Positions 8,967-47,768 of a stretch of DNA of 64,000 bases are shown piece after piece. The stretch's first letter is position 1; every line of letters begins with the position of its first letter. A program made the position numbers and the translations under genes. Origin of the DNA: a virus. The notes under the pieces were generated by a model, which worked only from the letters and a program-made list of their open reading frames with translations, had not been told where the DNA came from and made no database searches. The DNA lies in the IMG/VR virus record IMGVR_UViG_3300033143_004212, positions 19,405 through 83,404 of that record. One strand, 5' to 3'.

Positions 8967-8983
8967 ATTGAGGAGGTTAAGAG

Positions 8984-9433: not shown

Positions 9434-9450
9434 GGAAGTAGGTAAGAGAT

Positions 9451-9747
9451 ATGAATAATGTTACTTTTATAAAATCAGATTGAGAAGTCTACCTACGTTG
9501 GTTAAAAAATCAGATATATAAATTACTTCCTTTAAGAGAGGAAAAAGGAGAATGGAAAAAATTTGCTGAATCTCTTATATGAGAATTAAAAGGAGCAGAC
9601 AATATTCAAAACAAAGTACCATTAATGAGTTTGATATTTAAATTATCTGCATTAACCAAAATGGAAGATTTTAGAATTTATAGAAAGACTATATTTGAAT
9701 GTATAAATTTAATTAATAAATTCGAATTAAAGCTAGGTGAAGAATAG
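9451..9747 (+). CDS. Small neck-region protein, two UGA-Trp codons
   Basis: A 98-residue protein visible only when TGA is read as Trp. Two in-frame TGA codons occur, at 9481 (IKSDWEVYLRW) and about 9580 (SLIWELKG). It starts at ATG 9451 with an AGGTAAGAG upstream, ends at TAG 9745-9747, and the next ATG follows immediately (TAGATG), so the two are coupled. It is helical, with many Lys and Leu residues. No family recognised. With standard code it would look like non-coding sequence, so it is easily missed. Confidence 0.7.
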
Positions 9748-10962: not shown

Positions 10963-10976
10963 AAGGAGGTTAAAAG

Positions 10977-11471
10977 ATGGAACGCTCAAGAACAAATAGA
11001 GCAGTTTATAAAATGAATGCAAGTTTAAATAAAATAGCAAGAATACTTGCAGATGATGAAGAATTAAGAAAATTATTATTTTATCCATCAGATACTTTAG
11101 ATGATAATTTAGTAGATGTTACTAAAACAGAAGTAATAAATAAATGTACAGATATAGTAGCAAATTATCCTGATAGTATGGAATCTATTGGTGGTTTTTT
11201 AGTTATTGGGATTCCAGAAGGACATAGGAATAAAAATAATCCAAAATATTTTGATATCGTTCTTACTATTGATATAATGGTACATGAGGGCAGTGAAAAA
11301 TTTGGAGTAGGATTAAAAGCTCTTGAAATTTTTAATTTAATTGATTATTTGCTTACTGAAACAGATATACAGGGTATTGGTTTATTAAAATTAAAAGATT
11401 TCTTTTATCAAGTTTATACGCCAACTGTAAAAGGTTATACAATTGTTTTTACTAATAGAGATATGAACTAA
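10977..11471 (+). CDS. Tail-completion / neck protein candidate
   Basis: A 164-residue protein with a strong AAAGGAGG site. The fold looks mixed alpha/beta, with a beta-rich middle (GGFLVIGIPEGHRN, YFDIVLTIDIMVHEG) and a C-terminal beta segment (YTPTVKGYTIVFTNRD). This resembles the size and layout of tail-terminator or tail-completion proteins that cap the tube below the neck. I do not recognise a motif, so the name is by position. It overlaps the next ATG by one base (TAATG), implying translational coupling. Confidence 0.5.
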   Translation: MERSRTNRAVYKMNASLNKIARILADDEELRKLLFYPSDTLDDNLVDVTKTEVINKCTDIVANYPDSMESIGGFLVIGIPEGHRNKNNPKYFDIVLTIDIMVHEGSEKFGVGLKALEIFNLIDYLLTETDIQGIGLLKLKDFFYQVYTPTVKGYTIVFTNRDMN

Positions 11472-13117: not shown

Positions 13118-13967
13118 ATTAAAATTATTTGGAGCAAGACCTGTTTTTGATAAAGATTTAAAAGTTTATTTATACCCTTTAACACTTAGTTATATAATTG
13201 ATACTTTTGATGAAGAAACTTTATTTTTATTCCCTATGAATATTATTGCAATGGATGAATATGATTTAAAAACACAAGCTAATGAAATAATGGATAGATC
13301 AAGAAGAACTGCTAAACCAATTCGTAATCTTACTTTAACAAGATATGAAATCATTATGATTTATATTATGAATGGGATATCAAGTAATAAACCTGAATTA
13401 TTTGTAGATATGATTAATGGGTTTTTAAGAATATTTGAAGGAATTTTTAAATCAGAATTTGATTTTAATATGAAACTTTTTCAATTTTATTCTAAAGAAC
13501 AGATTACGATTGAAAAAATAACATATGAAGAAGATAAAATGGGCAAAATAGTTAAAAAGTATGTAAAAGATTTTTTAATTATAAATGAGAATAACTTTGA
13601 ACAAATTTGCGATTCAATAAAAGAAGTAAGTGGTTGGAATATGGGTGCTAATGAAAATAAGCCTGTCTACAATCCGGCAAGTGAGAAGGCAAAGCGAATA
13701 GCTGAAAAATTAGAGATGTCTAGAAAAAAGATACAAGCAATTAAAGCTAAATCATCAGACGAAGTAACACTAACAGACTTAATTTCTGCTTATTGTACAC
13801 AGACAAAAATCAATCCGAATGAAGTAGTCGGCACTTATACTTTATTCCAGTTTTTCTTACAAAGTGCGAGAGAATCCCTATTCTTAGAATACAATACGAG
13901 TATTCAAGCTATGCTTCATGGGGCTTCCGAAGTTAAATTAAAAAATTGGAGCAAAAAAATAAATTAA
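13107..13967 (+). CDS. Tail-assembly protein of unknown function
   Basis: A 286-residue, mostly helical protein overlapping the preceding gene by 11 nt. It carries short stretches reminiscent of proteins encoded next to tail tube genes (TLTRYEIIMIYIMNG, QSARESLFLEYNTSIQAMLH). No catalytic motif, signal peptide or membrane segment is visible. It precedes the tail tube gene rather than lying between tube and tape measure, so it is not the standard chaperone position. I can only call it a probable head-tail or tail assembly protein. Confidence 0.5.
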   Translation: MYNRLKLFGARPVFDKDLKVYLYPLTLSYIIDTFDEETLFLFPMNIIAMDEYDLKTQANEIMDRSRRTAKPIRNLTLTRYEIIMIYIMNGISSNKPELFVDMINGFLRIFEGIFKSEFDFNMKLFQFYSKEQITIEKITYEEDKMGKIVKKYVKDFLIINENNFEQICDSIKEVSGWNMGANENKPVYNPASEKAKRIAEKLEMSRKKIQAIKAKSSDEVTLTDLISAYCTQTKINPNEVVGTYTLFQFFLQSARESLFLEYNTSIQAMLHGASEVKLKNWSKKIN

Positions 13968-13980
13968 GGAGGAACAATCC

Positions 13981-14805
13981 ATGAAATTTGGTATTAGAGA
14001 AGTTGCAAACGTAACTTTTAGAACTTTATCATCTATAGTTATTGGTGGTCAAACTTTCGGTATCGGCGAGCCTGTTCTTTATTTTGACTCTTTAAAAGCT
14101 TCTACTTTAGCAGGAAATGCTAATACGGTATTTGCTATGGGTGGAAGAGGAAATAATAAACTTTTAGGTTGGGACGGAGACAAGGAAATAACATTCACTA
14201 TCGAAGACGCTCTTATTTCTCAAGAATCTTTCGCTATCCTTTCAGGTGCGGACTTAGTATCATATGACGGTTCAGCTACAAAAGCTAAACTTCATAAAAG
14301 AGAAATTTTACAATTAGACTCTTCAGAAGAAGTTACAGTTTCACAAATTATTCTTGAAGATAATGCGGATTTCCCAGTTTTTATGTATCTAAGTAATGCA
14401 GATGAAGAAATTCTTGATCTAATTATCGATCCTGTTATAAATGTAGACGGAGTTACAGTTGAATTTACTACAGTAACAGTACCTTCATTAGCAGAAGATG
14501 ACTGGGTTATAGTTGATTACTACTACGAAAGTCTTAAAGTTGTTAAATCTCTTGTTGTTAAAAATGATTCATTCGGTGGATATTACAAAGTCGAAGGAGA
14601 TTCTTTATGGAGAAGAGAAAAAGATGGTGTTGATTTAGCAGCATACTTAACAATTCCTAGAGCAAAAATTAGAACTAACTTTGAATTCTCAATGACACCA
14701 GATGGAGATCCATCTACATTCACATTCGAATTAGATGCTTTCCCTACTAGTATTAGTGGTGTTGGAACTAACGTTCTATTCACAATGGATATTGAAGAAG
14801 ACTAG
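13981..14805 (+). CDS. Major tail (tube) protein
   Basis: A 274-residue beta-rich protein. Its start, MKFGIREVANVTFRTLSS, resembles tail tube proteins of Bacillota siphophages. The interior has the alternating beta pattern of tube monomers (ITFTIEDALISQESFAILSG) and an Ig-like insertion near YYYESLKVVKSLVVKN. The C-terminal region (FEFSMTPDGDPSTFTFELDAFP) matches the usual tube end. It has a strong AAGGAGG site, expression-biased codons and a hairpin after the stop. The long tail tube would be built of stacked hexamers of this protein. The tape measure follows after two short genes, supporting the call. Confidence 0.8.
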   Translation: MKFGIREVANVTFRTLSSIVIGGQTFGIGEPVLYFDSLKASTLAGNANTVFAMGGRGNNKLLGWDGDKEITFTIEDALISQESFAILSGADLVSYDGSATKAKLHKREILQLDSSEEVTVSQIILEDNADFPVFMYLSNADEEILDLIIDPVINVDGVTVEFTTVTVPSLAEDDWVIVDYYYESLKVVKSLVVKNDSFGGYYKVEGDSLWRREKDGVDLAAYLTIPRAKIRTNFEFSMTPDGDPSTFTFELDAFPTSISGVGTNVLFTMDIEED

Positions 14806-14822
14806 TATTAAAAATTAAATAT

Positions 14823-14852
14823 TTGGAGAGATTAATTTCTCTCCAATAATTT
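14823..14852 (+). terminator. Hairpin with TTAATT loop after the tail tube gene
   Basis: A 9-bp stem TTGGAGAGA/TCTCTCCAA encloses the loop TTAATT and is followed by TAATTT. It probably acts as a partial terminator, reducing expression of the chaperone genes relative to the abundant tube protein. Confidence 0.65.
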
Positions 14853-14877
14853 ACTTTAGAGAAGAAAGGATGAATAA

Positions 14878-15156
14878 ATGAAGATAACGTTTAAGGATAT
14901 TATTTGTCAAAGTTTAAGAAATAACCATATACAAAGAATTTTAAATGATTTTGGTATTATTACGCATGATAGAGATCCTCATGATATAATAGAAGATGTT
15001 GCGGTTGTTTGAAAAATTTTAAAGAAAGAAGAACAAGGAATTGCTATAAAGTATTATTTAGCACAAGCATTAGTAGGAATTAGACATAAATATAAATTTG
15101 TATTATTAATGGATATGTATACAAGAGAAAACAAGGAGGAACAAAATGAATATTAA
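14878..15156 (+). CDS. Small protein, tail chaperone candidate (first)
   Basis: A 92-residue protein that exists only with UGA=Trp: the TGA near 15010 gives VAVVWKILKK. The start ATG 14878 follows GAAAGGATG. It is helical with a charged N-terminal half. It overlaps the next gene by 11 nt, and the SD of that gene (AAGGAGGA) lies inside its own last codons. Two short overlapping genes between tail tube and tape measure are the usual place of the tail assembly chaperones. Many phages make these by ribosomal frameshifting, but here the second has its own start and ribosome site. Family not recognised. Confidence 0.6.
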
Positions 15157-15703
15157 AAGAATAAAAGAACTTTCTAAAATTGAAAATAACATCAAAATGA
15201 TTAAAGTAGGAAATGAATTTATTAATGTAATTAAATATTTACCATCTGAAAAGAAAATGCTTTTCGTATATGATGTATTAGGCAGAAGTATTATATCAGG
15301 TAGAGTTAATCCTGTAGCAGTTGATATTTCAGTTTATGTAAATATTGTAATGAATTATTCTGATGTAGAAATAAATTTGGGAGAAGATAACATTTTTGAA
15401 GCATATGATATATTAGTACAAACTGGTATGCTAGATAAAATATTAGAAGCAATTCCTAAAGCAGAAATTGATTTAATGTTTGAGTATGTTAAAGATGCGA
15501 TTGAAACTGAATTAGCATATTTACATTCTGCAAGTGCAGCAATCTCTGATATTGCAAAAACTATAGCAGATAGTGCTATTGGAATGTTAAAGGAAAATCC
15601 TGAAATGTTAAATGTAAATGAAGTATTGTCAGAATCAAGAGAAGGTGTGGGAATACCAGCACCAGTAGAAAAAGAAAAAGAAATAGTATCGTTAGTTGAA
15701 TAA
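15146..15703 (+). CDS. Tail assembly chaperone candidate (second)
   Basis: A 185-residue protein immediately before the tape measure gene. It is helical (VDISVYVNIVMNYSDVEINLG, YDILVQTGMLDKILEAIP), a pattern I associate with tail assembly chaperone-like proteins that coat the tape measure during tube growth. The C-terminus is charged (PVEKEKEIVSLVE). It overlaps the preceding small gene by 11 nt with an internal AAGGAGG. The stop codon lies inside the stem of a strong terminator that separates it from the tape measure. Confidence 0.55.
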   Translation: MNIKRIKELSKIENNIKMIKVGNEFINVIKYLPSEKKMLFVYDVLGRSIISGRVNPVAVDISVYVNIVMNYSDVEINLGEDNIFEAYDILVQTGMLDKILEAIPKAEIDLMFEYVKDAIETELAYLHSASAAISDIAKTIADSAIGMLKENPEMLNVNEVLSESREGVGIPAPVEKEKEIVSLVE

Positions 15704-15729
15704 TCCGTTAATTCGGATTATTTTTTTTT
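15699..15729 (+). terminator. Strong intrinsic terminator, TTAATT loop
   Basis: A 9-bp stem AATAATCCG/CGGATTATT with loop TTAATT is followed by nine T. The TAA of the upstream gene is part of the stem. It should sharply reduce read-through into the tape measure gene, whose product is needed in only a few copies. Confidence 0.88.
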
Positions 15730-15821
15730 GCTCTAAATGGATGGGCAATATTATTTAAATATCCTAATAGATTTTTGATTTTTATATAGGAATACAATAG
15801 ATTTTAAAAGGAGGAATTATA

Positions 15822-18800
15822 ATGGCTGATTTTAGATATACCTATGAATTAGCAATGGCAAAGGTCTCTAAAAAACAATCATTGAAGGAATTAGAACAAT
15901 TTTCGGATGCAGTAAGAAAAATTTCACCAGAAATCTCTCCTTTTAGTCAAAAGGATTTAAAAAGACTAGATAGAGATTTAAGAAAGGCTAAAGCTACAAT
16001 TAGCGATACTTTCTCTGGACAACAATATGTTCAATTTGATGAAATGAATAAATCTTTAAAGAAAGCCGGAGTTAATCTACAAGATGTCAATGCGAAGATA
16101 GTCGCAATTAAAAAAGCAGGCAATGCAGTTACTGGAATTACTGGCAAATATCAACAACTAAGCCAACAAATGTCTAAGACTGCAGTGATTCAAGCAAGAA
16201 TGAATAAATTTGCGGCAACTTTTGTGAAATTAGTAAATTTCAAAGTTTCAATTGCGGCATATCAATTTGTCACACAACAATTAAGAGAAGCATTAGAATA
16301 CACAAAAGAACTAGATAAGACATTAACTGAAATTGCAACAGTTTCAGGTTTTTCTAGAGATCAATTAGAAAAATTTGCGATATCATTCAATAAAATGGCT
16401 TATGAAATGGGTCGTACTACGAATGAAATGGCTCAAGCTTCAGTAATCTTCTTTAGACAAGGTAAAGAGACTGCAGAAGTTATGCATTTAGTTGAAGCTA
16501 CAACTATTGCGGCATCTATTGCGCAAACAGAAATGGCTCAAACGTCAGAATACTTAACAGCTACATTAAATGGTTTTAAATTAGAAGCTACGGATGCAAT
16601 GTCTGTAGTAGATAAATTCTCTGCTATTGCTGCTAATGCCGGTACATCATTTGAAGAACTAGCTATTGGTTTAACAAAAGTTGCATCAGGAGCATCTAAT
16701 GCGGGAATAGACCTTGACCATATGTCATCTTATATTGCTACAGTTTCTGAAGCAACTAGAGAGACTGCAACAAATGTTGGTACATCTTTCAAAACTATTA
16801 TCGCTCGTATGAGAGGTATTACATCAGAAGGACATGAATCAGCAGATAGCTTAAATAGAGTAGACAAAGCTTTACAAGGATTAAGTATTTCTCTTAGAGA
16901 TGATGAAGGTCAATTAAGAGACTTACAAGATGTAATTGCTGAATTAGGAGCAAAATGGCAAGGATTAGACGTAAATACTAAGTCTTATATCGCGACAGTA
17001 ATTGCCGGTACTAGACAACAAAATAGATTCATTGCATTAATGGATAACTATGACAGAAGTTTAGAAATTTTAGAAACTTCTCTTAATAGTGCAGGCGCGG
17101 CTCAAGCACAATTTGGACAATATACAGAAGGTATCGAATATTCAATTAATCAATTAAGAGCTTCTGTAGAAGAGTTATGGCCTACATTACTATCTGGAGA
17201 TGCAGTAAAATTCTTAGTTAAAGGGTTAACTGGATTAGTTAAAATGTTAACTTATGTTTCTAAGAATATAGATCATATAGCATTAGTTATGATAGTCTTT
17301 AATAAAGCAATTTCTAAAATGGTTATGAGTGCGCATTTAGGTGCGACTGAAATGTCAACACTTAGTCAATCATTAGTTGTTCATGGAGGACATGTTAAAA
17401 GATTAACTACAACTTATAGAGTACTTGCAAAACAAAGACAAAAAATGAAAACAGATAAATTTGCTGAAACATTCTTATCTAGTAGCGACTGGGAAAGATA
17501 TTCAACAGGAGTATCTAAAGCAGCAGAAGCTTATAAAGCAATTTCTGCTCCTATAAAAGATATGACTAGCCAAATGGAAATTTACAAAATTAGTGTAAAT
17601 GAAGCAACATTAGCAGTAGAAGAGTTTGGTAGAAAATGGAGTAAAAGTTCAAGAAGAGGAACTAAAGCCGATTTATTCGCAGTAGAAAGAAAAGGCGAAT
17701 TTGAAGGACAAAGAGGACTAGATCCAAAAACTTTAAAAATTGAAAATCAAGAACTTTATAATATAAGACTTAAAGCTATGCATTTGAATGAAAAAGATAC
17801 AATTTTATATGAACAACAATTAGCATCAGCGAGAACTCAAGTAGGATTAAAGCAAGAAGCTTTAACAGCACAACAAGCGATGAACCCATTACTTACAAGT
17901 GCTAGAACAGAACAAGAATTAATGAAAAAAGCAGTCCAAGAGGAAGTTGCTTATAGAAAACAACAAGAAATATTAATAAATAAAGCTAGAAAACAACAAT
18001 TATTAATGAAATCAGCATTAATGCTTTCATTAGTAGTAGTATCTTCTCTTTCTGATGCTATTAAAAATGCAGATGGAAGTATAGAAGATACGAGAGATAG
18101 AATATTAAAACTTACTAACTCTATTGGTAGCATGTTACTTTTATTAGGTCCACCTATTGGCAAAGCTATTGGTGCGGCTATAATGGTTGGAAGTGCTTTA
18201 ATCCAAAAATTATGGAAAACTAATAAAGAAAAATTAGAAGAATTTAGAAATAGTATTAAAGCAGTAAGTGACGAAATAAAAGTATTAGGAGAAATGGGAG
18301 ATGCTTATGAAGAGTTAAGAAAGAAAGCCGCCGCAGGTGGTATTAGTTTCTTATCTGGAGAAGAGCAAGAACGACTATATGATTATATGCTAAGATTATC
18401 AGAATTAGAAGATATTGAAATAGTAGATTACTCTCCTGATGGAAAACCTATTATAGATATGACTAAATCAGTTGAAGAATTAATTGCGGCTAGAAGAGAA
18501 TTACTTCAAATAGATAAAGAAGGAATAAATAGTGCTTCTGAATTTAAGAAAAAATGGGAAGAAGCAAGCGATGTAGAAATGATTCAAATGGAGCATCTAT
18601 GGGAATCTCCTGCAGGTGATAACATTGTAGAAGAATTATCTAAGCAAGCAGTTCAAGCAATAAAACTTGAAAAACAATATGAACTTTTAATGGAAAAATT
18701 TACTTTCTTACTCAATGAAACTGCGGAATTTAAAGGCTCTTTCTTAGAGAATTTCGTAAAATATTTTGATACTGGAGAAATTGGACCAGAATTATTAACT

Positions 18801-18941
18801 AATGTTGAAGAAATATATAATACAATTCAAACTGCTTTTGCAAAAAAAGCAAGAGAAGGATTAATTTCTAAGGATGAAGCAAATGAAATTATTAATGCTA
18901 CAATGGGAATAAAAATATATTGAATTAGCAAAAGAAACTAA
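15822..18941 (+). CDS. Tape measure protein, N-terminal part
   Basis: The first 1039 residues of a very long helical protein with AAAGGAGG before its ATG. Residues 150-420 carry the TP901-type tape measure core (ELDKTLTEIATVSGFSRDQL, FFRQGKETAEVM, SSYIATVSEATRETATNVGT, FKTIIARMRG). Later segments include hydrophobic stretches (LMLSLVVVSSLSDAI; SIGSMLLLLGPPIGKAIGAA) that could insert in the host membrane at DNA ejection. The frame ends soon after position 18911: UGA 18921 is read as Trp, then six codons later TAA. The next frame continues the same kind of protein without its own ribosome site. I treat this as one gene broken by a single-base frameshift at an A5 run. Confidence 0.85.
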
Positions 18942-21549
18942 TACTGTAAATGCTTCAACAACAGCATTAATGCAAACTTATAAAGATTTACAAGATGCTA
19001 CTTCAGATTTACGTAGCGCAAGACAAACTTTAGCAGAAGATGAAGAATTAGAAATTGGACAAGTTTTAGAATTAATAGATTCTCATAGTTCATTAATTAA
19101 ATATCTAGATTTAGAAGCTAAAAATTATGGTATTACTGCAAGAGCATTAGCAGAAGCATCTCAAGTTTTAGTACAAACTAGAATTAATGATAATTTAGCA
19201 ATTATTGCAGGTATTGATGCAGAGATAGCGGATCAAAAAGTTAAACTTTCTCAAATAACTATTGTTTATAATTTAGCAATAGCAATAAAATGGCTTAGTA
19301 GAGCCAGACTTGATTCAATAAAAGCTAATCTTTACGAAACTCAAGCAAGTATAAGAGGTCTTAAAGAACAAAGAAGTAATGTTTTGAAATTAAATACATT
19401 ACTTGAGAATTATACTATAAAAACAGAGAAAGCATCTAGTGCAACTCAAGCATTTACTTATAGTTTAAAAAAATCTGCATTAGAATTTAAAAATATGAAT
19501 GAATTAGTTGAAGAGTCTAATACAGTTGTTTCACAATTACGTGATACAATTAAAGCTTTAGAAAAAGATATGACAGATGCTGATTTAAGTACTATTGCTA
19601 CTTTAGCAGAACATATTAAAGCTTATGATGAAATAAAAGGTGCATTGCTTGGTCAAGCTAGTTTACAAGAAAGTTTAAAACAAGAAGCATTAACAGGATT
19701 AACTCAAATCCTTGCAGGTCTTGATAAAAACATTATTGGAATTAATATTAACGATATTATTATAGACGGAAGAGTCGATAATACTAAATTTAATAATTTA
19801 GCTAATTTTTTAAAAGAAGAAGTTAATAGACTAAATGCGATAATGAATAGAGGAAAAGGAACTAAAGAATTACAAGAACAACTTAAACTTTATCATACTC
19901 TTTATAGTGAAGTTGAAAGCTATAAAGATGCTATAGAAAAAGCTGATTTAGCAATATACAAAACAAATCAAACTCTTACAAAAACTATAGAAGATCAACA
20001 AGCATTCTATGAAAAATTAGTAATTTCTCAACTTGAATACATCCAAGATATATTAGTTGAAAAATATGAAGCCGCTCTTGAATTGATCAAAGAAGGAAAT
20101 GAAGCATCTGTTGAAGCGATAGAAAAAGAAAAAGATGCATGGGAAAAATTATTAGAACAACAAAGAGAAAGATTAAAAATAGATAAAGATTTAAGAGACT
20201 CTGAGAGAGAAAGAAGAGATATCTTAATAGAAATTGGAGACAAACAAGCGCTACTTAATAAATTAGCTCTAGATGAATCACAATTTGCTAAAAAAAGAAA
20301 GAAACAATTAACTGAAGGTATAACTAAAAATAGAGAAAAATTAACAGATATTGAATATGATAGAAGTTATGAAAGTAAATTAGGTTCTTTAGAAAGTTTA
20401 AATAAAATTAGACAAGAAGAATTTATAACAAGATTAACAGAATTAGAACAAAGTTTAGCTTTTGAAGAAGCTCGTTATGAAGTTCTTTTAACTCAACGTA
20501 ATATTGAAAAATCTGCTGAAGCTTTACTATTGGCCAAAGGAACTATTATTAGTTTTACTGGAGAAGTAATGACTTTAGATAGTTTAGTTCAAGAATTTGG
20601 AGAAACACTTTCTAAAACTGGAACTAGAGAACAATTAGAAGGTTTTAATAAGTTTAATGAAGAAATAGTAGCTATAAATGATTTATTAAATGAAATGGGA
20701 GTAGTTTATGAGGATGTAGTAATTGATTGGAGCCAAATTAAAACAGCTAATTTAGCAGATTTTGAAGCCGATCTTATAGGTGCGGCTGAAAAAGTTGGAT
20801 TATCATTTTCAGATTCACTTCTTGAACAATTTAAATTAGGGACTATTAAACTAACAACGCAATTTGGAACTGCAGCGACAGAAATGGAAACAGCAGTTGG
20901 TGAATATGCTAATAGTATATTAAAGATTTATAAATCAATGTTAAATGATATGGTATTTGGAGCAAAAGAAACAGGGAAAAATATTGGAGCTGCTTTGGAA
21001 GATGGAACTGCAGAAGAAATGGATATTGCAGAAGCTGTCTTTGGTAGAGAAGGAGAAGGTAAGGGACTATTAGATGAAGCTTATTGGGAAGGACGAAATA
21101 TTGATTTTGCTGTTATTCAAGGTATTAAAGATTCTCGTAAGAAAGGCGGTACTTCTACATGGGTTATTACTCCTGGAAGCGATGAAAACGATTCTGCTCC
21201 TACTGGTGATGGTGTATGAAGACCTCCAAGAGATTTAGGTATAGTTGGTTATCATAATGGTGGAATGGTTAATTTTGATGGAATAGCGGCTGTACATGGT
21301 GAATCTAGCCCTGAATGGATATTTAATTCTAACCAATTAGAATCTGTTATTAAAATGACTAATGCAAGTATGTTAGGAACTTTATCTAAATTAAACATAC
21401 CATTAGGTGGGACTGGAGTAACGATTGAAAATCTAATTAAGATTGAAGGAAATGCAACAGAAAACACAATAATAGAATTAAAAAAATTAGCTAAACAAAT
21501 CGCACCAATAGTGGGAAAACAATTAGTTAAACAAATTAAAAAGGTATAG
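18913..21549 (+). CDS. Tape measure protein, C-terminal part (frameshifted)
   Basis: The continuation of the tape measure in the +1 frame, open from 18913 (YIELAKETN) with its first ATG at 18970 and no Shine-Dalgarno there. It is long coiled-coil (DKQALLNKLALDESQFAKKR, repeated EKL/KLE segments). One TGA at 21217 (DGVWRPPRDLG) is Trp and joins the C-terminal segment HNGGMVNFDGIAAVHGESSP, which resembles the conserved end of many tape measures. The frame ends at TAG 21547-21549. Joined to the first part, the protein would have about 1909 residues, implying a tail near 280 nm by the usual 1.5 angstrom per residue. The break could be a sequencing error, a +1 frameshift site or a real mutation. 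Confidence 0.8.
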
Positions 21550-22427: not shown

Positions 22428-25262
22428 ATGTTAGGAGATATAAATTACCTACTTGGACCTATTGAGTACGTTTTAGAAGTAACGAAACCAAATAAAGAAC
22501 CAATAGTTGCGATCTCCAATGATTATGGAAAGGTATACTCACCTTCTATGAAAGCTATTAATGAATTTAGTTTTATGATTAATAAATTTTATGAAGATGG
22601 CAGTATAAATGCATCTTATGAAGCAGTACAAGAAAAATATTTAATAAGTTTAAATCAACAAGAGTATTTCGTAATTACTGAAATTGAAGAAGATGAAATA
22701 GAAGGTATTAAAGCAGTTATATGTTATTCTCTTGAATACGAACTTGGACAAAAATTTGTACAAGCATATGAAGTTGTTTCCGCAAAATTATATAGTAATA
22801 ATTCAGATTTTGATGGTGTTATGAATATGGTAAACAGTTTGGCTCCCTCTTGGACAGTAGGTACGATAGATGGAGAAATTCTTGAATCTTATAGATCATT
22901 TGATGTGAGTAACGTAGATATTTATACTTTTATTACAAAAGATATTAGTGAAGCTTTTGGTTGTATCGCTCTTTTTAATACAGATGAAAAAACAATAAGC
23001 TTTAAATTTTTAGAACATATAGGAGTAAACAACTCATTATTCTTATCAAGCGATAATTTAATTAAAACTTTAACGAGAACTAGAAAATTAGAAAATATAG
23101 CAACAAGAGTTTATGGTTTTGGTTCAGAAGATTTAACAATGAATACTGTTAATCCTAATGGATTAAGTTATATAGATAATTTTTCATATTTCAAGAATAG
23201 AAATTGGATGTCTCAACGATTAATAGATGCATTAGACGCACATGATGCGATTGTAACTGCAAATATTCCAGAATTCCAAACAGTTCTTTCTGATTATCAA
23301 GATGAATATGAAGATAAATTTGGTTCATCTATTTATAAAACTTTATTAGTAACAGATATTTCAGGAGCAAACATTACTTTTGATGATAACGCATCTGATG
23401 TAGATAATTATTACAATGGTTGGAAATTATTAATTGAATTACCAACTTCTGAGAATCAAAATTGTGCAGGTCAAACTGCAACGATTTTATCATATAACGG
23501 AACAACAAAAATTGCAACACTAAGTTCTGCTTTTTCAGAGGTAAATCATACTTATGAAACTGTAGAAGTTACAGTAAAAACAATCCCTGCTAATCCAGAG
23601 GGAGAAGAAATATATGCAGAAGGTAGCTATTACATTTCTGAGAATATTGGTAATTATCAATATTTACAATTATCTTTAGTTAAACAAGGTAATTGGGAAG
23701 AAATTGAAAAAGCTTTAGTTGCTAGACATGCATCAATAACGCCAACACAAGATGATTTAGATGAACTAGCTGAAGCTAGAACTCATTTAGATTATTGGAA
23801 TGGTCAAGTAGGAGTATGGCAAACTTTAGTAGATGCAAATGATGTAGTACTTGATGCAAAAACAACTAGATTAGAAGAACTTAATGTAATTATGGATATA
23901 GAAACTAATTTAACTTTTGATGAATTGCAAGAATTAGATCCATATATTATTGAAACTACTTATACAAATTCTAATATTATAGATGAAGTAGATTTATATG
24001 ATGAAGTTGTAGAAATTTCTGATAGAGTTGGGTATCCTAGATATGAATTTTCATTAGATGCAGACGATCTTTTAAAAATGGTTGAATATCAACATATTAG
24101 ACATAGATTAAAAATTGCAGATATAATAAATATTAAAATATCTGAAACAGAAGAAATTGAAGTTAGAATAACTGGATATTCTCATGAATACGATGAGAAT
24201 ATAATAAATATAAGTTTTTCATCTGTAAATTCTATTTTTGATTCAAGTTATGAATTAGCAGAGTTATTGAAGAACAATACTAGTGCAGCATCATCATTAA
24301 ACGTAGAACGTTTTAAATTTAAAACTTATGTAAAAGAAGACCAAAATACAATTTTAACTTTCTTAGATAGTGCTTTAGATGCGGCTAAAAATGCGGTTAT
24401 AGCAGGAAATAATCAAGAAGTATTGATAGATAGAACAGGTATTACATTACGAGAATATGATGCAATAACTGGTGGTTTTACAGATTCACAAATGAGATTA
24501 ATTAATAATACAATTGCAATAACAGATAATAATTGGAATACAGTTAAAACCGCAATAAGTCCTGACGGAGTATTTGCCGATGTATTAATTGGTAGAGCAA
24601 TCCTTGGTGCCGAACTTCAAATTGAAGCGGCAGATGGAACTTTTGAGGTTGATGAAACTGGTACAACTCTTAAAAATATGTCGTTAACAGCGGTTAAAGA
24701 TGAAGGATTAGGAACAGAAAGAAAAATAGTATTAAATGATACAGATGTGTTTAGAGTTTCTATTGGTGGAGTAGATAAATTATGGATAGATGTCTCTGGA
24801 GACATGAATATAGCAGGTAATATATTTATGAGTGCAAGTTCTAGAATTACTTGGACGAATGTCACAGATGCAGATTCTGAAGCAGTATCAGCATGGGACG
24901 ATAATTATATGACTACTATTGGTCCTGATTATGTTTTTACTGGAAAAATTCAAGCCAATAAAATCACAGGTAATACTTTGACAGCATTAGATGAAATAAA
25001 TATAGGAGATGTATCTATGAGTACTAATGGTATATTAAGAATGCATTCTGCGGGTACTTGGTGGATAGGAATGCAAACTTATGAATCACCGGGACCATCT
25101 TGAGAAATCGGATATCTTAGTTCTATAACAGATACGACAATATCTGAACTTAATAGAATTATGTTAGCAGCTAACATGGTGTATACAAGTAGTAATTTAT
25201 CAGTACTTGGGAATCTTTCAGTAAGCGGAACTGTAACAGGTGTTACTGCAGTATTTGGATAA
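22428..25262 (+). CDS. Tail-associated protein (Tal / tail hub)
   Basis: A 944-residue protein after Dit. The first 380 residues resemble the conserved hub domain of phage minor tail proteins (prophage endopeptidase tail family): YFVITEIEEDEIEGIKAVIC, ENIATRVYGFGSEDL, YIDNFSYFKNRNW. The middle is helical (LDELAEARTHLDYWNGQVGV). The C-terminus is beta-rich with short collagen-free repeats and a shaft-like end (GDVSMSTNGILRMHSAGTWW). TGA 25101 (SPGPSWEIGYL) is Trp and adds 52 residues. It would close the tail tube and carry the fibres. No protease motif stands out, so I do not claim endopeptidase activity. Confidence 0.75.
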
Positions 25263-31128: not shown

Positions 31129-31159
31129 AACACCCTTTAATTAGGGTGTTATTTTTTTT
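31129..31159. terminator. Bidirectional terminator, TTAATT loop
   Basis: An 8-bp stem AACACCCT/AGGGTGTT with loop TTAATT is flanked by a T run on the right and an A run on the left. It can end transcription of the fibre gene (+) and of the amidase gene (-), whose stop codon lies in its T run. Confidence 0.88.
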
Positions 31160-31988
31160 ATTCTTTTTTTAGAATGCCGTATAGATCAGATAGTAAAATA
31201 CTTATTTCATTTGCTATTGCTAAGGAATCATTTATTTTTTTATCTTGTTTTTTAATTGTTTCTTCGTATTTTTTGATTTTTTTATCTTTTATATCTTCTT
31301 CATCATTTTCAAATAATGGCATATAATCAATTCCGAAGTATTTACAAATTCCAACTGCGTGCGCTAAAGCAATTTTTTCTCGGTAACCATCATCTAATAA
31401 TTTTTTTGCATCTTCTTTATTAGTCATAAATCCGCTTTCAGTAAGTATTGCAGGTGCATCTGTATTTTTTATTACATAAAATCTTGCATTCTTAACTTTT
31501 CTATCAACCATTCCAGTCGCATCTATTAATTCTTTGTGAACTGTTTTTGCTAATCTAGGTCCTATTCTACTACCAGTAGAGTAATAAGTTTCAATTCCTG
31601 TAACAGTATTCCATCCACCCATTCCATAAGCATTCGCATGTATTGAAATAAAGATGTCTACTTTTGCATCGTTAGCAATTTTGACTCTAGATTTAAGAGG
31701 TAGATCTATACCTTCTTTATAAGTTCTTACTACTTTAAAACCTCGTTTTATTAATTTACGTTCTAATTTCTTTGCGACCGCGAGATTAAATTCATATTCG
31801 TGCATGAATTTACCATTTTCCCATCTAGGCGTGCGTTTTCCCCGAGTTAATGGACCGTGACCTACATCTATTCCTACTGTAATATCTTTTGATGTTTCTA
31901 ATATGATTCTTTGTGTTCGTACTGCGATATACTTTCTCATATTTATTGCAGTAGTATTTTTTATTCCTATTATAATATTTCTTTTCAT
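31158..31988 (-). CDS. N-acetylmuramoyl-L-alanine amidase (endolysin)
   Basis: A 276-residue Amidase_3 zinc hydrolase that cuts the bond between MurNAc and L-Ala in peptidoglycan. All four catalytic/zinc positions are present: His44 (GIDVGHGP), Glu66 in HEYEFN, His117 (FISIHANA) and Glu184 (ILTESGFM). The C-terminal 45 residues are a charged coiled coil, not a known wall-binding domain. The start chosen is ATG 31988 behind AGGAGG; the in-frame codons upstream lack a site. It is the only minus-strand gene in the left 37 kb and has its own consensus promoter. An active wall hydrolase implies a host with peptidoglycan, which is unexpected with UGA=Trp. Confidence 0.9.
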   Translation of the reverse strand: MKRNIIIGIKNTTAINMRKYIAVRTQRIILETSKDITVGIDVGHGPLTRGKRTPRWENGKFMHEYEFNLAVAKKLERKLIKRGFKVVRTYKEGIDLPLKSRVKIANDAKVDIFISIHANAYGMGGWNTVTGIETYYSTGSRIGPRLAKTVHKELIDATGMVDRKVKNARFYVIKNTDAPAILTESGFMTNKEDAKKLLDDGYREKIALAHAVGICKYFGIDYMPLFENDEEDIKDKKIKKYEETIKKQDKKINDSLAIANEISILLSDLYGILKKE

Positions 31989-32016: not shown

Positions 32017-32045
32017 ATTATAACATATTTTCTCCTATTTGTCAA
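32017..32045 (-). promoter_or_regulatory. Perfect consensus promoter for the amidase gene
   Basis: On the minus strand TTGACA and TATAAT are separated by exactly 17 nt, with TGT in front of the -10. This is the best vegetative promoter in the window and points to recognition by an ordinary sigma-70/sigma-A factor of the host. Confidence 0.92.
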
Positions 32046-32179: not shown

Positions 32180-32464
32180 ATGCTTAAAAAATTTTTAAAA
32201 CTACAAACCTCTAAAAAACTTATTACAATAGTTGTATTGGTATGGGTATTGTCAATCATAATTGGATATATAGGAACATTCTTTGGAATTTCTTTTATTG
32301 ACATTATTCAAATTGTAAATTTAGATTTTTTAGTTATTTTAGGATTCTATTTTACAAAAGCAGGTTCAGAAAATATTGTTAAAATTACCAAAGATTTTAC
32401 TATGAAGAAAAAAGAACCTGAATATGATGAACTCAATGAATATGACGAAGTGCCTTACAAATAA
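32180..32464 (+). CDS. Small membrane protein, holin candidate
   Basis: A 94-residue protein with two predicted membrane spans (LITIVVLVWVLSIIIGYIG and IIQIVNLDFLVILGFYF) and a charged C-terminal tail (KKKEPEYDELNEYDE). The segment GFYFTKAGSENIVKI recalls small membrane proteins encoded in lysis or tail regions of Bacillota phages. Placed just beyond the amidase and next to a second holin-like protein, it may form part of the lysis system. Holin, antiholin or an unrelated membrane protein are all possible. ATG 32180 has AAAGGA upstream. Confidence 0.55.
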   Translation: MLKKFLKLQTSKKLITIVVLVWVLSIIIGYIGTFFGISFIDIIQIVNLDFLVILGFYFTKAGSENIVKITKDFTMKKKEPEYDELNEYDEVPYK

Positions 32465-32476: not shown

Positions 32477-33148
32477 ATGGGAGCTTGAGTAGAAATAACT
32501 CTTGCAATTATTGCTTTAATTTCAAGCGTGAGTACGGCATTAATTAATAGGAGATATAGAAAAGTTAAGAAACAAGAAAAAAGAAATAAACTTATAAATC
32601 ATCCTGTCCACAGTAGAATGAAAAGCTATAAAAGAAGATTTTTAATAGATTTTCAACTTAATAACAAAGGGAAGGAAGCAGTTCTTAGAGATTTATTTGT
32701 AAAAAAATTTGAATTATGAACTGATGCATTATACGATTTAGCAAAAGAGATTGATGAATATATTAAAATTTATTCTGAAAATGATGATAAGAATTATGAA
32801 ACTATTAAAGAAAAAAATTTATTATGTTTTAATGAAACTTTAGAAAAATTTAATGCATATCACTATGGTCCTGAATACACGCCAGAAGAAAAAATATTAA
32901 TTGAGATTGTTATTGGAAAATTTAATATATGGCAAAGTCATCGTTCCAGATTTATCGAAGAACAAATTATGGATATTTGTAATAATTCGATGATGTATCC
33001 AACATGTGAAAGAAAACAAATTGCAATTTTTGACATATACATGGCAGTTTTTGCAATGACTCTAAATGATGCAATGAAAACAGTAGAGTCAATTAATGGT
33101 CAATTGGAAGGTAAATATTTCAGAGGTATAAAAATAAGTAAGGAGTAG
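32477..33148 (+). CDS. Membrane-anchored protein of unknown function
   Basis: A 223-residue protein recovered only with UGA=Trp: TGA at 32486 (MGAWVEI) and 32717 (KFELWTDALYDL). Residues 4-22 form one N-terminal membrane span (VEITLAIIALISSVSTALI), followed by a basic stretch (RRYRKVKKQEKR), so the rest is probably cytoplasmic. The remaining 190 residues are helical and charged with no recognised motif. It begins after AAGGAGGAG and sits inside the lysis region. A spanin or holin partner function is possible but unsupported. Confidence 0.6.
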
Positions 33149-33151: not shown

Positions 33152-33844
33152 ATGTCAGATATTAAATTAATAATATTAGATATTGGTTACAAAGAAGATG
33201 CCTTTGGATTAAAAAAAGGAACTAAAGTATGAACTAAAGAATTCAAATTCAATAGTAAAGTTGCAAAACTTATAAAGAAAATTTTAGAATTAAATGGAGT
33301 AAAAGTAATTTTAACGCAACCATTAAACACATCTAAGATTTCTTTAAATGAAAGAATTATTTTAGAAAAAGAATTAAATCCAAAAGCAGACGGATTAGTT
33401 TCCATGCAAGCTGATTGGAATTCAGAAGAAGCTACTGAAGGTAGTTGGATTTTTTATTGGCACACTTCTCAAGAAAGTGGGAAATTAGCCGCTCTTATAG
33501 ATAGAGCATTAGTTGATTGTTCGAACAATGAGCACCGAGATATAACGGCATCTATGCCAGACTCTTGGAACGATTTCCAAATTTTAAGAGAAACAAATTG
33601 TCCTTCTGTATTAATTGAGTATGGTTATATCGATAATAAAGATAGAATGAGAATATTTAGAAATAGATATTTTGCTTTAGATTGTGCGAAATCAACTTCT
33701 GAGGGGATTTTACAATTTTTAGGAATAAAGAATTATACTTTAAAAACAAAAGGAAAAAGAATTATAAAAGTAATCAAAGGTTTAATAAAACTTTTGAATA
33801 AAATATTAAACAAAATAGAAAAAGGAGGAAACAAATGAATCTAG
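33152..33844 (+). CDS. Degenerate Amidase_3-fold protein, zinc ligands lost
   Basis: A 230-residue protein with the overall plan of N-acetylmuramoyl-L-alanine amidase. At the first zinc site the usual DxGH is DIGY (Tyr13). At the third, SIHAN is SMQADWN (Gln86). The two glutamates (Glu30 in TKEFKFN, Glu156 in LIEYGY) remain. A zinc hydrolase lacking both His ligands should be inactive, so it may now bind rather than cut. TGA at 33230 (TKVWTKEF) is Trp. A second TGA at 33836 overlaps the next gene's ATG, and the frame ends at TAG 33842-33844. The basic C-terminus (KKIIKVIKGLIKLLNK-type) could touch membranes. Confidence 0.75.
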
Positions 33845-40383: not shown

Positions 40384-40406
40384 AAAGAGAGAATTTATCT
40401 CTCTTT
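40384..40406 (-). terminator. Terminator at the end of the ribonucleotide reductase gene
   Basis: A 9-bp stem AAAGAGAGA/TCTCTCTTT with loop ATTTA overlaps the reductase stop codon; on the minus strand it is followed by TTTTTTAACTG. It lies between the reductase gene and the next operon's promoter. Confidence 0.75.
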
Positions 40407-42735
40407 ATTTTATTGGACATGCACCAGTATCACACGAACTACCAATGATTTCAAAATCTTCTCCTGTTTCGTATTTTGCGATTAGATGAGGTTTAAAATC
40501 TGACATTTCTTTTTTCATCTTTAAGTATGTTTCTTCATCTATTTCCTCGTAAGGTAATAATTCGAATGCATTATCATCTAATGATAAGAACGAAATTGCT
40601 ACAATGTCATCCCAATTGTTTCATACCCATTGTTCTACTTCTTCCCATTCATGATTTCTAACATGAACAGTAATTGAAGCATTATGATCTACATAATGTG
40701 TCATGAACATTTTGTATACTTCTAATTGTTCAATCGCGCTAACATCCATTTTTGTTTTTCCTTTTGGTGCTTTAACCGGAAATTCAACTACGTATGTTTT
40801 AACATTTGGTTCTGATTGTCCTACTTCTGGAACCATATTCCAACCTAAATCTCTTACAACTTTAGCCATTGGATCATTAGCACTAATTCTAACTCTTCTA
40901 ATATAGTAAGGAGAATGTGCAAAATGTAACCCACTTGATACTGTAGGTAATTGTGATAATGTACCTTCTGGTTTTACAGTTGTTGCTAATATAGGTTCAT
41001 TTCCTCCCATTACTTGTGCTATATCTTTTGCAGTCTTTTTAACTATTTTTTTCATATGAGCGAGTAATATCGCTTGTTTATCTTTATTTAATCCTGATAA
41101 ATTAACCATGTCTTGATATCCTGTCATAGATACACCAATTAATCTATCTCGTTTATTAACGCTATTCCATCTTGGAAGTTCCATTTCTATATTCGTCATT
41201 CTATATGCTGCTCTAGTTAATAATTCTAATGCACGGTCCATTCCTTTTCGATCTATGCTACCATCTTCATTAACAAACATTCTGATAACAAGAGTAACTA
41301 AATTACACATTCCTTTATTATCTAATAGTATTTCAGCGCACGGATTGAGTCCTACAAAATTATCTCTTCGTTTTTTAGCAGCTTCTTCATTTGAGAGTCC
41401 TGGTTCTCCTGTATATCTCATTTGTTGTATGTGCCAATGTAGCTGTTCTCTTTTAGGCTTATTTTTATAAATGATTGTATTGTTACTCATTTGTCTATGG
41501 ATGATTTCTTTATCAACTATCCATTGACCATCAATTTGTTTATATATATTGTTTTTAGCAGTCAATATATCTTGGTCATCATAATCAAATAGAATCATTT
41601 CGCTAGTTCTTCTAACTCCACCACTTACTACATTTTCTCCTATAATATTTGCTATATCCATGAGTTCATAAGTTTCTAAATATCTAATTGGATCAATTCC
41701 ATTTTTTAGAACTTTATCTATTTTTTCATACATATTCGTCAATGCAGTATGACCGCTTGCGTATCCACCGAAAGTTTTTAATCTTTCTCCTTTTGGTCGG
41801 ACACTATCATAATCGAATATAATTGTTTCAACAACTTTAAAATCATTTGCTGTTAAAATTTCAAAAAAGTATCTAATACTTCTTGCTCAACCTTTTTTAC
41901 TATCTCCAACTATAATTTTAACTACTGTATTATCATTATTAAATTTTAAAGTAGTATGTTCATCACGCTCGCTTCTAATTTTTTTTGGATTATAATTTTT
42001 ATTAATAATCTCAACATCTGTTCTGATTAAAGGTAGCATATCTTTTTGTTCTTTTGTAATCTTTAATCCCATTCCTGAACCAAGCATTAACAAATAAAAT
42101 AATTCATAAAAACATTCATAATCATTAACACTATCAAAAGCACAATTAAAATTACTTTGTGGACTAATTTCCGCAACTGGAGTTCCACCTATCCAGAATG
42201 TACGTCCTGATAAGAAACCTTTTAAATTATATATTAAATCGAATAATTCTTCTGCTTCACGCTTGCTACAATTACCAAGTGAACAATTATAATCTACCGC
42301 TCTCGCTACAGTTTCCCACCAACGTTCTCTTCTTTTCTCTCCTGGTAAATATCTAGAATATGTTCTGTAATAAACAAAGCTACCTATTTGATGCTCAAAT
42401 GGGTCTGGTAAATGTTTATATTTACTTATAAAATCTTCACTTAAAAATTGATATATTCTTTTAATTCTATTTTTCTTTTCATTCTTATAATTAATGTAAT
42501 CACTAGCAACTTCAAAAAAACCTTGCTCCATTAAAGAAATTTGTACAAATTTTTGAATTTCTTCGACGTGTACTTCATCTTTTGTAATCTTATCTATAAT
42601 TCCTGCTGAAATTAATTTAATTTCACTTAATTTTAGCAACGTATCAGATTCTTTAGCCGCACTTTTAATATTTCTTTCTATGACAGAAATATCGAAAGGG
42701 ACTTTTTTACCATTTCTTTTTATAACTATTGCCAT
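40405..42735 (-). CDS. nrdJ: Adenosylcobalamin-dependent ribonucleoside-triphosphate reductase (class II)
   Basis: A 776-residue class II reductase making dNTPs from NTPs using B12. Visible features are the N-terminal ATP-cone-like segment, the catalytic region LSGRTFWIGGTPVAEISPQ, SNFNCAFDSVNDYE, GSGMGLKI, GGVRRTSEMILFD, the active-site NPCAEILLDNKGMCN, and a C-terminal redox pair CDTGACPIK. Two TGA codons are Trp: 41887 (DSKKGWARSIR, where reductases have a conserved GW) and 40619 (EQWVWNNWDD). Joining them merges three apparent fragments. The monomeric Lactobacillus-type enzyme has a similar length. It needs no oxygen or second subunit, which suits an anaerobic host with access to B12. Confidence 0.92.
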
Positions 42736-43292: not shown

Positions 43293-46200
43293 CTATGACT
43301 CCCCATTATTTCTTTCCCAAATGAGAGAAATGCTTCCATCTTCATGTATATCTGTAATTTTATAAATAGTATGACGACCACTATTTTTATAAGTTTTAGC
43401 AACGAATTGGGTCTCTCTTCTAAAACCAGTAATTAATAATTTGTTTCCACGCTTAAACCAAGAACGTTCAACAATTTTCTTTTTGTTTGAACCAGGTATT
43501 CTTTCTGATATTTGTTTATCGAAAGCAGCGAATTGGTCTCTATACATTTTTACTACTGCAATTCCGTTAGTAGTTAATATAGTTACAGTATGTCTTTGTT
43601 TATCTTTATCTAATACTGTACCTGCTATAGTATCTAATTTATATATAGGTCTATCAATTCCTTTTATTCTATAATATCTGACAATTGTTGGTTCTGTAGG
43701 TAAGTTATTGAACTCTATAACACCATATGATTCATTATCCATACCAATTAATTCATGTTCATGATGGTAGTAGCAAATAGATTCCATTTCCCAATGAGAG
43801 ATTGTTCCACTTGCATATTTTTCTCATAGCTCATTGAATAAAGAATTATTATAATCTATTAACATTTGATTATGATTTTTTTTAATGAATGCTTTGATTG
43901 GAGCCATTATAGGTTGATATACTTTATCCCATAGTTTCTTTGAGACGTATAGCGCTCCTTCTATCTCTTCTACGAATGCTTCGGGGAATTCAAAAATATT
44001 ATAGTATCCTTCTTTAATAGTATCATCAAATAAGTAATACTCAACTTTATTTTCTCCTATTAAATATTTATTTCCTCTTCTTCTTAAATATTTATTAAAT
44101 TTAAAAACTCTTTTTTCCTTAGCAAATTCATCTGGAATAAATCCACCATCTATTAATGCATTCGCATTTTGCATAGTTAACTTTAATTTTGGTGCGCTTG
44201 CATATCGTAAATAATCTTCTAGAATCTCTTCTCTAGGTTTTTGTTCTAGTTCATCAAATGATCCACCTTTAATTAGTGAAATGATTTGTGTTTTATTAAC
44301 TTTTACTTTGTCATAAAAATCTCACATAGATTCATAAGGTCTATTTTCAATAATTTCAGCAACTAAATCTTGACCAATTCCATTCATACTTTTTAATCCA
44401 AATAAAATAGAATCAGTTTCTGCATCAGGACTAAAATCGAAATTGGCTCTATTAATGTCAGGATAAACAAGCACAATACCATTCTCTTTCATTTTACTGA
44501 TCGCGGAAGCAATAGCACCATAATCTGTAGGTTTAGGTTTTAAAGCTTCAGAATCTTCTAAAGAACCGGCATTAACAGATAAGCAAGCAGTATTCCAATA
44601 AACTGCAGGATATAAGAATGCAAGATTCAATTGCGCTACTGCAATTACTGTATAAGGTAAAGTATGATTTTTAGAGAATGAATAACCTGCTTGAGGTAGA
44701 ATACATTCTTTTCATATATACTTCAATAAATTTATAGATGTTCCTAATTCCAAACCTTTCTCTTTAAATAACTCTTTAACTTTATCCATTAAAACTTTTT
44801 TCTTCTTAGCCACTGCTTTTCTTAATTTATTCGCTTGTACAACATTGAATCCAGATATTCTTTTATCCATTACTATTTCCATAATAACTTCTTGAGTATC
44901 TGCTACTCCATAGTTTTCTCCTAAATGCTCTAACATTATTTTCATTTCATCTTTAGTTAATCCATAACTATCCATTACTCTATACCAAAGATTAATATCA
45001 GCTTTAAATCGCACATATTTATCTATAGGTTGTTCTTTTCCTTGCTCTGCCATTAATCTCATTAAGTTATTACCGATTGCGCCCTCTTTAAGAGAGAAAG
45101 GTCTAATCTTCATAGCCGCTTGTAGTCCAACAGAAGTACAGTATTGGAATAAATCTAATACTTTATTTTCGTGCATTAGTTTCCACATTTCTCTATTATC
45201 ATAAATTAACTTGTCAGGATGTAGATAGAATTCATATGTTTCTTTTAAAGAATTCTTCCATTCAATATATCCATCTTGAGATAGTAATTCTAAAGTAACT
45301 CTTATTTTATCCATAGCTTTAACTGTAAGGAAATCATATTTTAATCCACCTAAATAATCGCTATCTGCCATATTGAATTGTGTAACTGGTAATCCACTTG
45401 GAGCTCTCATCATTGCATTCCAATCAGTAAAATCAGAAGAGAAGATATAAACTCCACTTGCATGACTAGAACGTTTATTAATAAGTCCTTCGATTCCAAG
45501 CGCAACTTCTTTAAGTCTTGGATATCTTTCTACTTCTTTAATTATTTTTTCTAATGGTTTCCTTTCTTTTTCTTCGTCACCAAAGAAGCATTCTTTAAGA
45601 GACCAGTTGAAACCTCTTTCAACAGGAATTAAACTAGAAAGATATTCTGCTGTATCAATATCAATTTTTAATCCTCTACATGCAGTAAGCATTGCAGATT
45701 TTGATTTCTCAGTACCAAAAGTAGCGATATTAAGAATCTTTTTGTAACCAAGTTTTTCCTTAATAATTCTAAGTATTCTTGACCTCTTGGAAGCTTCAGT
45801 ATCAAAATCGATATCAGGAATCTCTGGTCTCTCAGCTGATAAATGTCTCCAATGTGGTAATTCATGTTTTATAGAATCAATTTGAGTAATATCCATTAAA
45901 TATGCAGTTAAGAATCCGTTTACAGAACCACGTCCTGGACCAACTAAACTATTACCACCATCGTCTGCCCATACCAAATTCATAATGTATTCCATTGTAT
46001 TATAATACTGACTTAAGTTTTCATCCATGTTAATACCTGCACCGATAATTTCTCCTATTTCTGTATCTATTCTTTTTAAATATGAATCACTCCATAAATC
46101 TTTTTCATATAATCCATAAAGATTTCTAATTCCAAAATACATTTCTTGTTCATCTTTAGAATTTACATATGCTTCTATATTAGAATAATTATCTACTGCA

Positions 46201-47231
46201 TAAATTATTGATTCTCGAAATTTTTTATCTTGAAGCATTTTATTCTCTATTTCATTCAATTTTAATTTTTCACGTATATTTATACTAGGTACTACTTGTT
46301 TATGGAATAAATCATAGTTCTCGCACATATCAGAAATCTTGATAGTATTATTAATTATATCTTCTATTTGATCATCTTCTAATGAAAATTGTAAGTATTC
46401 TATTATTTCATCTACATCCATCATATAAGTAGTAGAATAGAAATCATCTACTTCTCTATCTCCTTGTTTAGAATTTAAATACGCTTTATGGACTTCTCTA
46501 TCTTCTTTAGTTAGATAATGAGAATCTGTAGTTACAATAACTTTTACTCCATAAGCATTAGCGATTTGATATGCCAATTTATTAAAAATATTTTGGTCAT
46601 CTTGCGCAGATGGTTGAACTTCAACAAAGAAGTCTTCTTTTCCGAACACTTCAATACAGAAAGTCATAAAATTATCTATCCATTGTTTAGATTCTAAGCT
46701 TCCTTCACTTCTATAATAGTTTAGAATGGCTTGTGGAAATTCTCCTCCTAAACAAGCAGTCGATCCTATTATATCGCCTTTATATTTTTTCATAATTTCA
46801 ACTAAATGAGCTTTTTCAGTTGGTACTCTTGTCATTGGTCCTCTTGTAACAAAAGAATTTATCCAAGCTTCACTAGAAAGAAGTCTTAATGCTTCATGAC
46901 CTCTTTTATTTTTTGCTAATAGAATAAAGTGATAAAACATTGCTTTACCGCCATCTTCATATAATTGTTTCATTGCATCTACATTATCTATTAGGTATAT
47001 TTCATTTCCTAAAATTAATTTAAATTCTCTATCTAATTCCATTTCTTTTAAATGTTCGATTGCTTGGACATGTGCTGATAAGACTTCATGGTCTGTAATC
47101 GCTACTCCGTTGCTTCCTAACCCATATGCTCTATCCATTAAATTAGAAACTTTATTAATACTATCTAGTAATCTTATATTTGAATATTCTGTATGATTAT
47201 GTAGGAAGGGCAATTGATTTTTATTTTTCAT
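43293..47231 (-). CDS. dnaE: DNA polymerase III alpha subunit (DnaE-like)
   Basis: A 1312-residue replicative polymerase. The N-terminal PHP domain starts FLHNHTEYSNIRLLDS. The palm follows, with GPGRGSVNGFL and the catalytic PDIDFD, then fingers and the segment ILPQAGYSFSKNHTLPYT. The C-terminal OB-fold region ends around RGNKLLITGFRRETQFVAKT. Three TGA codons are Trp: 44712 (LKYIWKECILPQ), 44322 (PYESMWDFYDK) and 43824 (FNELWEKYASG). They join four apparent fragments into one gene. It is driven by its own promoter inside the end of the RNase HI gene. Most other Trp codons here are UGG. Confidence 0.93.
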
Positions 47232-47255: not shown

Positions 47256-47284
47256 ATTATATCAAATTTTTAATTATAATACAA
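47256..47284 (-). promoter_or_regulatory. Promoter of the polymerase gene
   Basis: On the minus strand TTGTAT and TATAAT are 17 nt apart, with TGA before the -10. A weaker AACAAAA sequence occurs at the position of the AACT box of other promoters. It overlaps the last codons of the RNase HI gene. Confidence 0.7.
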
Positions 47285-47768
47285 CCGATTTTGTTTCAAA
47301 AATACGTCTTTCTGTTTTTTTGATTTTATTTTTCATAGCAGTTGTTGCTAATTTGTCTGCGCGTTCGTTTCCTAAAATACCTGAATGACCTTTAACTTTT
47401 ACAAATTCTACTTTATCAAAAAAAGTAACTAAAGCATCTAATATTATTCATAAATCTTTATTTTTAACTTCTTCTTTTTTAGAATTTTTTCAACCATTTC
47501 TTTTTCAGTTATTTATCCATTTTTTATTATACGCATTAGCTACATAAGAAGAATCTGTATAAATAATAACTCTTGTTTCTATCATTTGCGTTCATGTAGA
47601 AATTTCTTCTAATGCTTTTATTACTGCGGTTAATTCCATTCTATTATTTGTTGTTTTTTCTGAGTATCCCATGTGACCCATATTACCGATACAATATCCT
47701 CAACCGCCTTCTCAAGTTCCATTCTGTGAACAAGCACCGTCTGTATAAATTTCTATTAAATTTGTCAT
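47274..47768 (-). CDS. rnhA: Ribonuclease HI, six UGA-Trp codons
   Basis: A 164-residue RNase HI, invisible with the standard code because six TGA codons interrupt it (residues 19, 23, 59, 88, 93, 107); one further Trp is UGG (84). Catalytic residues are all present: Asp10 (IYTDGAC), Glu45 (NRMELTAV), Asp72 (YTDSSYV), Asp138 (NERADKLA), plus His128 (VKGHSG). The segment KWINNWKRNGWK lines up with E. coli WIHNWKKRGWK, and KDLW with VDLW, so UGA falls exactly at conserved tryptophans. It removes RNA primers from RNA-DNA hybrids, next to polymerase and helicase genes. This is the strongest single proof of UGA=Trp here. Confidence 0.95.

Follow-up and report, generated by a model that had tools for sequence, protein, structure and literature searches.

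Phages that read UGA as tryptophan (code 4) within hosts of normal code have been described (Borges et al. 2022, via PMC10746230; PMC11210395), and recoding of UGA by the phage itself is already known in kind. Mycoplasma and Spiroplasma phages, by comparison, read UGA as tryptophan by virtue of their hosts, and in one survey, of the 27 INPHARED phages for which table 4 was predicted, 22 had Mycoplasma or Spiroplasma hosts (PMC11210395). Among approximately 46,000 bacterial species screened, UGA was assigned to tryptophan only in Entomoplasmatales, Mycoplasmatales, and a few endosymbionts (PMC8629427). In the gut phage phAss-1 and its relatives, UAG is recoded (PMC10607447). The enzymes against which a phage amidase can be compared include CwlV-type Amidase_3 (1JWQ) and the phage endolysins PlyPSA and CD27L.

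The stretch of DNA analyzed here, referred to as the window (64,000 nucleotides), makes up most of an 83-kb record fragment from a large tailed phage. With the code 4 phages of the accounts cited above, it shares in-frame UGA codons at tryptophan positions, UGA-using virion and lysis genes, a UGA-poor left arm, and, in its nearest relative, a suppressor tRNA-Trp(UCA). It differs from them in that neither an RF1 nor a TrpRS was found here (both are present in some known members only), in having same-clade relatives with a standard or UAG code, and in the binning of the relative with a methane-seep Izimaplasma. phAss-1 and its relatives have a homologous portal (29%), a large genome, and suppressor tRNAs without a synthetase, but recode UAG instead of UGA. 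The amidase of the window resembles CwlV, PlyPSA, and CD27L in its fold and its four zinc and catalytic residues; unlike these enzymes, it carries a C-terminal helix, lacks a recognised wall-binding domain, and lies alongside a paralogue devoid of zinc ligands. The Mycoplasma and Spiroplasma phages have the same assignment of UGA, whereas here the genome binned with the relative encodes RF2 and retains UGA as a stop, and the peptidoglycan amidase is intact.

Reading of UGA in the window phage

The genes of the window on which the comparison of codes is based are as follows.

3646 to 5121, plus strand: portal protein
7221 to 8219, plus strand: probable major capsid protein, the basis of the clade tree
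40405 to 42735, minus strand: B12-type ribonucleotide reductase (2 UGA)
47274 to 47768, minus strand: RNase HI (6 UGA, 1 UGG)

A search with capsid and portal identified IMGVR_UViG_2597490295_000013 (127,832 bp; hereafter G001) as the nearest relative. It is syntenic with the window, its capsid is 73% identical, it likewise uses UGA as tryptophan, and both amidases are kept in the same order and orientation. G001 corresponds to contig JRFF01000053.1 in the genome bin of Candidatus Izimaplasma HR2.

That UGA encodes tryptophan in the window phage had been claimed in the preliminary description, and the sequence comparisons bear this out, so that we regard the assignment as real. The longest-ORF coverage of the record (G000/L003) increased from 0.73 with the standard code to 0.83 under code 4, and ORFs lengthened. 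When 77 genes were aligned with their G001 homologues, with UGA masked, tryptophan was by far the most frequent sense partner of UGA. It stood opposite the UGA codons of G001 in 34 of 46 non-UGA partners and opposite those of G000 in 13 of 29. Within RNase HI, four of the six UGA sites (masked as alanine) align with tryptophan of solved RNase H homologues. A reading of UGA as glycine (code 25) was ruled out, as glycine was opposite UGA in none of these partners in either direction.

Several further observations were made along the genome. The tape-measure region (15822 to 21549, plus strand) holds two ORFs in the window phage and a single 1947-aa ORF in G001. A GIY-YIG homing-endonuclease-like gene (58343 to 58978, minus strand) lies between thymidylate synthase and DNA ligase. 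DNA polymerase III alpha (43293 to 47231, minus strand) has IMG/VR relatives at 35-52%, mostly in records of up to approximately 140 kb; many belong to isolate-type IMG datasets and may be prophage-like, and a few metagenomic ones look UAG-recoded (L141, L162).

The two amidases and their neighbors

The lysis region of the window comprises the following features.

31129 to 31150, no strand assigned: bidirectional terminator-like hairpin between a tail gene and amidase 1
31158 to 31988, minus strand: amidase 1, an Amidase_3 N-acetylmuramoyl-L-alanine amidase and predicted endolysin (276 aa, ATG at 31988)
32017 to 32045, minus strand: amidase 1 promoter, sigma-70-type (TTGACA-17-TATAAT, 12/12, TG before the -10)
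32180 to 32464, plus strand: 94-aa protein with hydrophobic stretches, possibly a holin or lysis accessory
32477 to 33148, plus strand: holin-like gene, with a weak PHROG holin match at the N-terminus
33152 to 33844, plus strand: amidase 2, a pseudo-amidase and Amidase_3 homologue with two UGA codons, adjoining the holin-like gene

Amidase 1 matched Pfam Amidase_3 (PF01520) over positions 1-173 of 174 with 151.6 bits (cut-off 27; E=2.9e-44), a PHROG endolysin group at 9.6e-50, and CwlV (1JWQ) at 8e-27. Residues H44, E64, H117, and E184 align with the zinc ligands His, Glu, and His and with the catalytic Glu of CwlV, and all four are invariant in G001 despite a divergence of approximately 42% between the copies. 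The predicted model reached a moderate pLDDT of 69 and its fold matches solved amidases; the C-terminal helix is long. A single-sequence search of viral contigs returned no relatives of amidase 1, and a search with the alignment of the two phage amidases found only G001 to be close, the others reaching at most 40%, two short fragments excepted. An AGGAGG site lies ahead of the ATG. A perfect consensus promoter pair was also found upstream of the G001 amidase 1, and the window promoter is therefore unlikely to be due to chance. The earlier claims of an endolysin with all four catalytic and zinc residues and of a very strong promoter thus hold.

The window amidase 1 gene contains no UGA codon, while its G001 counterpart has UGA at codon 8, so that a UGA-free enzyme gene is not a conserved trait. 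In the holin-like gene, codons 4 and 81 are UGA, the second of them also in G001. Outside the lysis region, G001 encodes a protein with an SLT transglycosylase domain (L018 3458-4069, minus strand).

In amidase 2 the zinc histidines are lost (GH to GY, SIH to SMQ; the G001 copy has GY and SIQ), and the amidase fold is kept in the predicted structure. As both histidines are missing in both phages, the loss probably predates their split, and the intact amidase 1 is likely the endolysin. From its residues, amidase 2 is probably a non-catalytic paralogue, perhaps with a role in wall binding or regulation. A second amidase beside a holin-like gene, with its zinc histidines lost in both phages, is new here.

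Amidase 1 is probably a working endolysin. It would act as a cytoplasmic zinc amidase expressed from its own sigma-70-type promoter and would cut the MurNAc/L-Ala bond once one or more membrane proteins of the adjacent lysis genes admit the enzyme. Being free of UGA, the enzyme of the window phage could be made from the start; the lysis trigger may depend on UGA decoding, given the UGA codons of the holin-like gene.

The candidate host and its wall

HR2 as a host stems from a single bin, and bins are weak host evidence; one contig of the capsid clade described below sits in a Methanobrevibacter bin. The GC content of G001 is 0.285 and that of HR2 0.292 (PMC6256511). Published tRNA counts are 58 for HR2 and 38 for HR1 (PMC6256511), a difference that fits approximately 20 extra tRNAs from the phage contig. 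An independent host link was found neither by GyrA similarity, which is uninformative at 40-46% to nearly all Bacilli, nor by spacers for window positions 1-20000. When this part was compared with 90 genomes from the same order as HR2, only short imperfect matches appeared, and no repeat arrays were present at five places checked. The capsid gave three distant matches only in the other genomes of the Bacilli and the class that were sampled.

With respect to the murein genes and the tRNA-Trp of the candidate host, which the preliminary description had proposed to check, searches of HR2 detected no MraY or PBP transpeptidase, although PBPs turned up in the other bacterial genomes searched; a tRNA-Trp of HR2 itself was found neither by sequence nor by pattern. 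The Izimaplasma lineage is described as wall-less (PMC8397711). Either G001 is in the wrong bin, or the phage of a wall-less host keeps an apparently active amidase. Of the two things that had been held to speak against the earlier account, a wall-less host and an inactive amidase, the first is true of the lineage of the sole host candidate, whereas nothing shows the second.

A wall-less Izimaplasma-like host, with the amidase serving another use (e.g., attack on walled neighbors) or persisting as an inherited remnant, is conceivable but doubtful; this would concern the host and is compatible with recoding by the phage. The matching GC within the HR2 bin, the missing MraY and PBP transpeptidase in a lineage described as wall-less, and the decay of amidase 2 in both phages are in line with such a host, but the bin is a single one, the capsid matches among other class members sampled are few and distant, the 90 genomes gave no spacer match for the part of the window compared, and other clade members occur in bins of walled bacteria. 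Moreover, amidase 1 keeps every catalytic residue at the stated divergence; its activity thus seems to be under selection, which would imply that at least one of the two phages infects walled cells. That the phage was mis-binned or has switched hosts is more likely than a wall-less host for which the amidase is useful. It is rather improbable that the lineage infects free-living, wall-less, Izimaplasma-type bacteria of normal code, with UGA recoded and a catalytically intact, strongly promoted amidase used for something other than host lysis.

It also appears unlikely that amidase 1 is a virion or early-acting hydrolase while other genes lyse the cell. Its isolated position and opposite orientation to the late genes, together with a promoter of its own, would suit such a role, as would the SLT-domain protein that G001 has in addition; the copy that adjoins the holin-like gene is amidase 2, but without zinc ligands this copy could hardly hydrolyze anything. 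Furthermore, PHROG groups amidase 1 with endolysins, and in both phages it adjoins the lysis genes, which argues for amidase 1 as the endolysin.

Phage or host as the source of the code

G001 carries 24 tRNAs for most amino acids (L017 2150-15175, equal to G001 102-115 kb), and one of them is a tRNA-Trp(UCA). This is of the 74-nt form, unlike tRNA-Sec, and its model contains two U-U mismatches in the acceptor stem. Searches of G001 returned no Trp/Tyr-type synthetase and no release factor, so that the suppressor tRNA would compete with the RF2 of the host. Neither the window nor the remainder of its 83-kb record yielded a tRNA, which is weakly informative, as the fragment lacks the region that matches the tRNA region of G001.

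The HR2 genome encodes both RF2 (471.8 bits, SPF motif) and RF1 (PAT motif). UGA ends 11 of its 75 long chromosomal ORFs, and code 4 gives no real gain in coverage. Examined in the sole host candidate, a host-level assignment of UGA to tryptophan is thus contradicted by the presence of RF2 and UGA stops. As G001 encodes a tRNA that decodes UGA, and as the bacterium in whose bin it was placed has the ordinary code, the odd code is most likely the phage's own.

The capsid clade points in the same direction. It consists of 14 capsid homologues on phage contigs from various bins, including the window phage. UGA is recoded in the window phage, G001, G003:C37, L020, and G008:C5; UAG is recoded in G005:C329, G007:C1, G007:C19, and G009:C72; and G004:C1, G006:C4, L009, L010, and G009:C13 use a standard or near-standard code. 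These three states interleave on the capsid tree and need at least four changes, compared to a theoretical least of two. A matching suppressor tRNA was present in three contigs (TCA in G001; CTA in G005:C329 and G007:C1), and none was found in the standard-code G004:C1; several contigs of the clade are fragments, for which the absence of a tRNA is uninformative. Such lability of the code within a clade is expected if phages recode and is hard to reconcile with a host-determined code.

UGA is used by virion, lysis, and replication genes. When the count is limited to those portions of conserved genes that were aligned, G001 has 0 UGA and 20 UGG codons in its left arm vs 61 and 117 elsewhere (p=0.0006). 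The corresponding counts in G000 are 2 and 26 vs 39 and 145 (p=0.12), which alone is not significant, and both of its left-arm UGA codons fall at a junction where a frameshift splits one gene. Other apparent UGA codons of the left arm, checked singly, lie mostly inside false 5' extensions from mis-extended starts. The split gene is located at 13922-14856 of L003 (window -5482 to -4548) and is frameshifted relative to G001 22820-23452. A sigma-factor-like protein (PHROG; L003 18474-19487, plus strand), located where the virion block starts, has 5 UGA and 3 UGG codons. Judging by its position and by what has been reported of phages of this type (PMC10746230), the left arm would be expressed first. 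The earlier argument that UGA occurs in early genes such as RNase HI and the reductase fails at this point: both belong to the replication module, and the left-arm genes of G001 avoid UGA.

Very probably, the window phage itself recodes UGA to tryptophan in a host of ordinary code by means of a phage tRNA-Trp(UCA), which was found in G001 and is to be expected in the region that the window fragment lacks. Since UGA is avoided in the left arm but used in virion, lysis, and replication genes, some phage proteins can probably be translated only once the suppressor tRNA is available. This option had been ranked second in the preliminary description and is now supported by the G001 tRNA, by the RF2 and UGA stops of HR2, and by the code flips within the clade. 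The reading preferred there, in which the host, walled or not, reads UGA as tryptophan and the phage follows, is highly improbable: the lack of a tRNA in the window record, the use of UGA in replication as well as virion genes, the failure to find a phage RF1 or TrpRS, and the prevalence of Mycoplasma and Spiroplasma hosts in the INPHARED survey would accord with it, but it is at odds with a tRNA-Trp(UCA) in a phage binned with an RF2-bearing, UGA-terminating genome, with the flips inside the clade, with the avoidance of UGA in the G001 left arm, and with the narrow bacterial distribution of UGA as tryptophan in the screen cited at the outset.

With the code assigned to the phage, UGA as tryptophan and a cell wall are no longer in apparent conflict. 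What is left is the sharp question of whether a peptidoglycan amidase is really needed by a phage that shares a bin with a wall-less bacterium. In addition, our analysis adds a phage clade whose members switch between standard, UGA, and UAG codes and in which the suppressor tRNAs found match the code of the respective phage.
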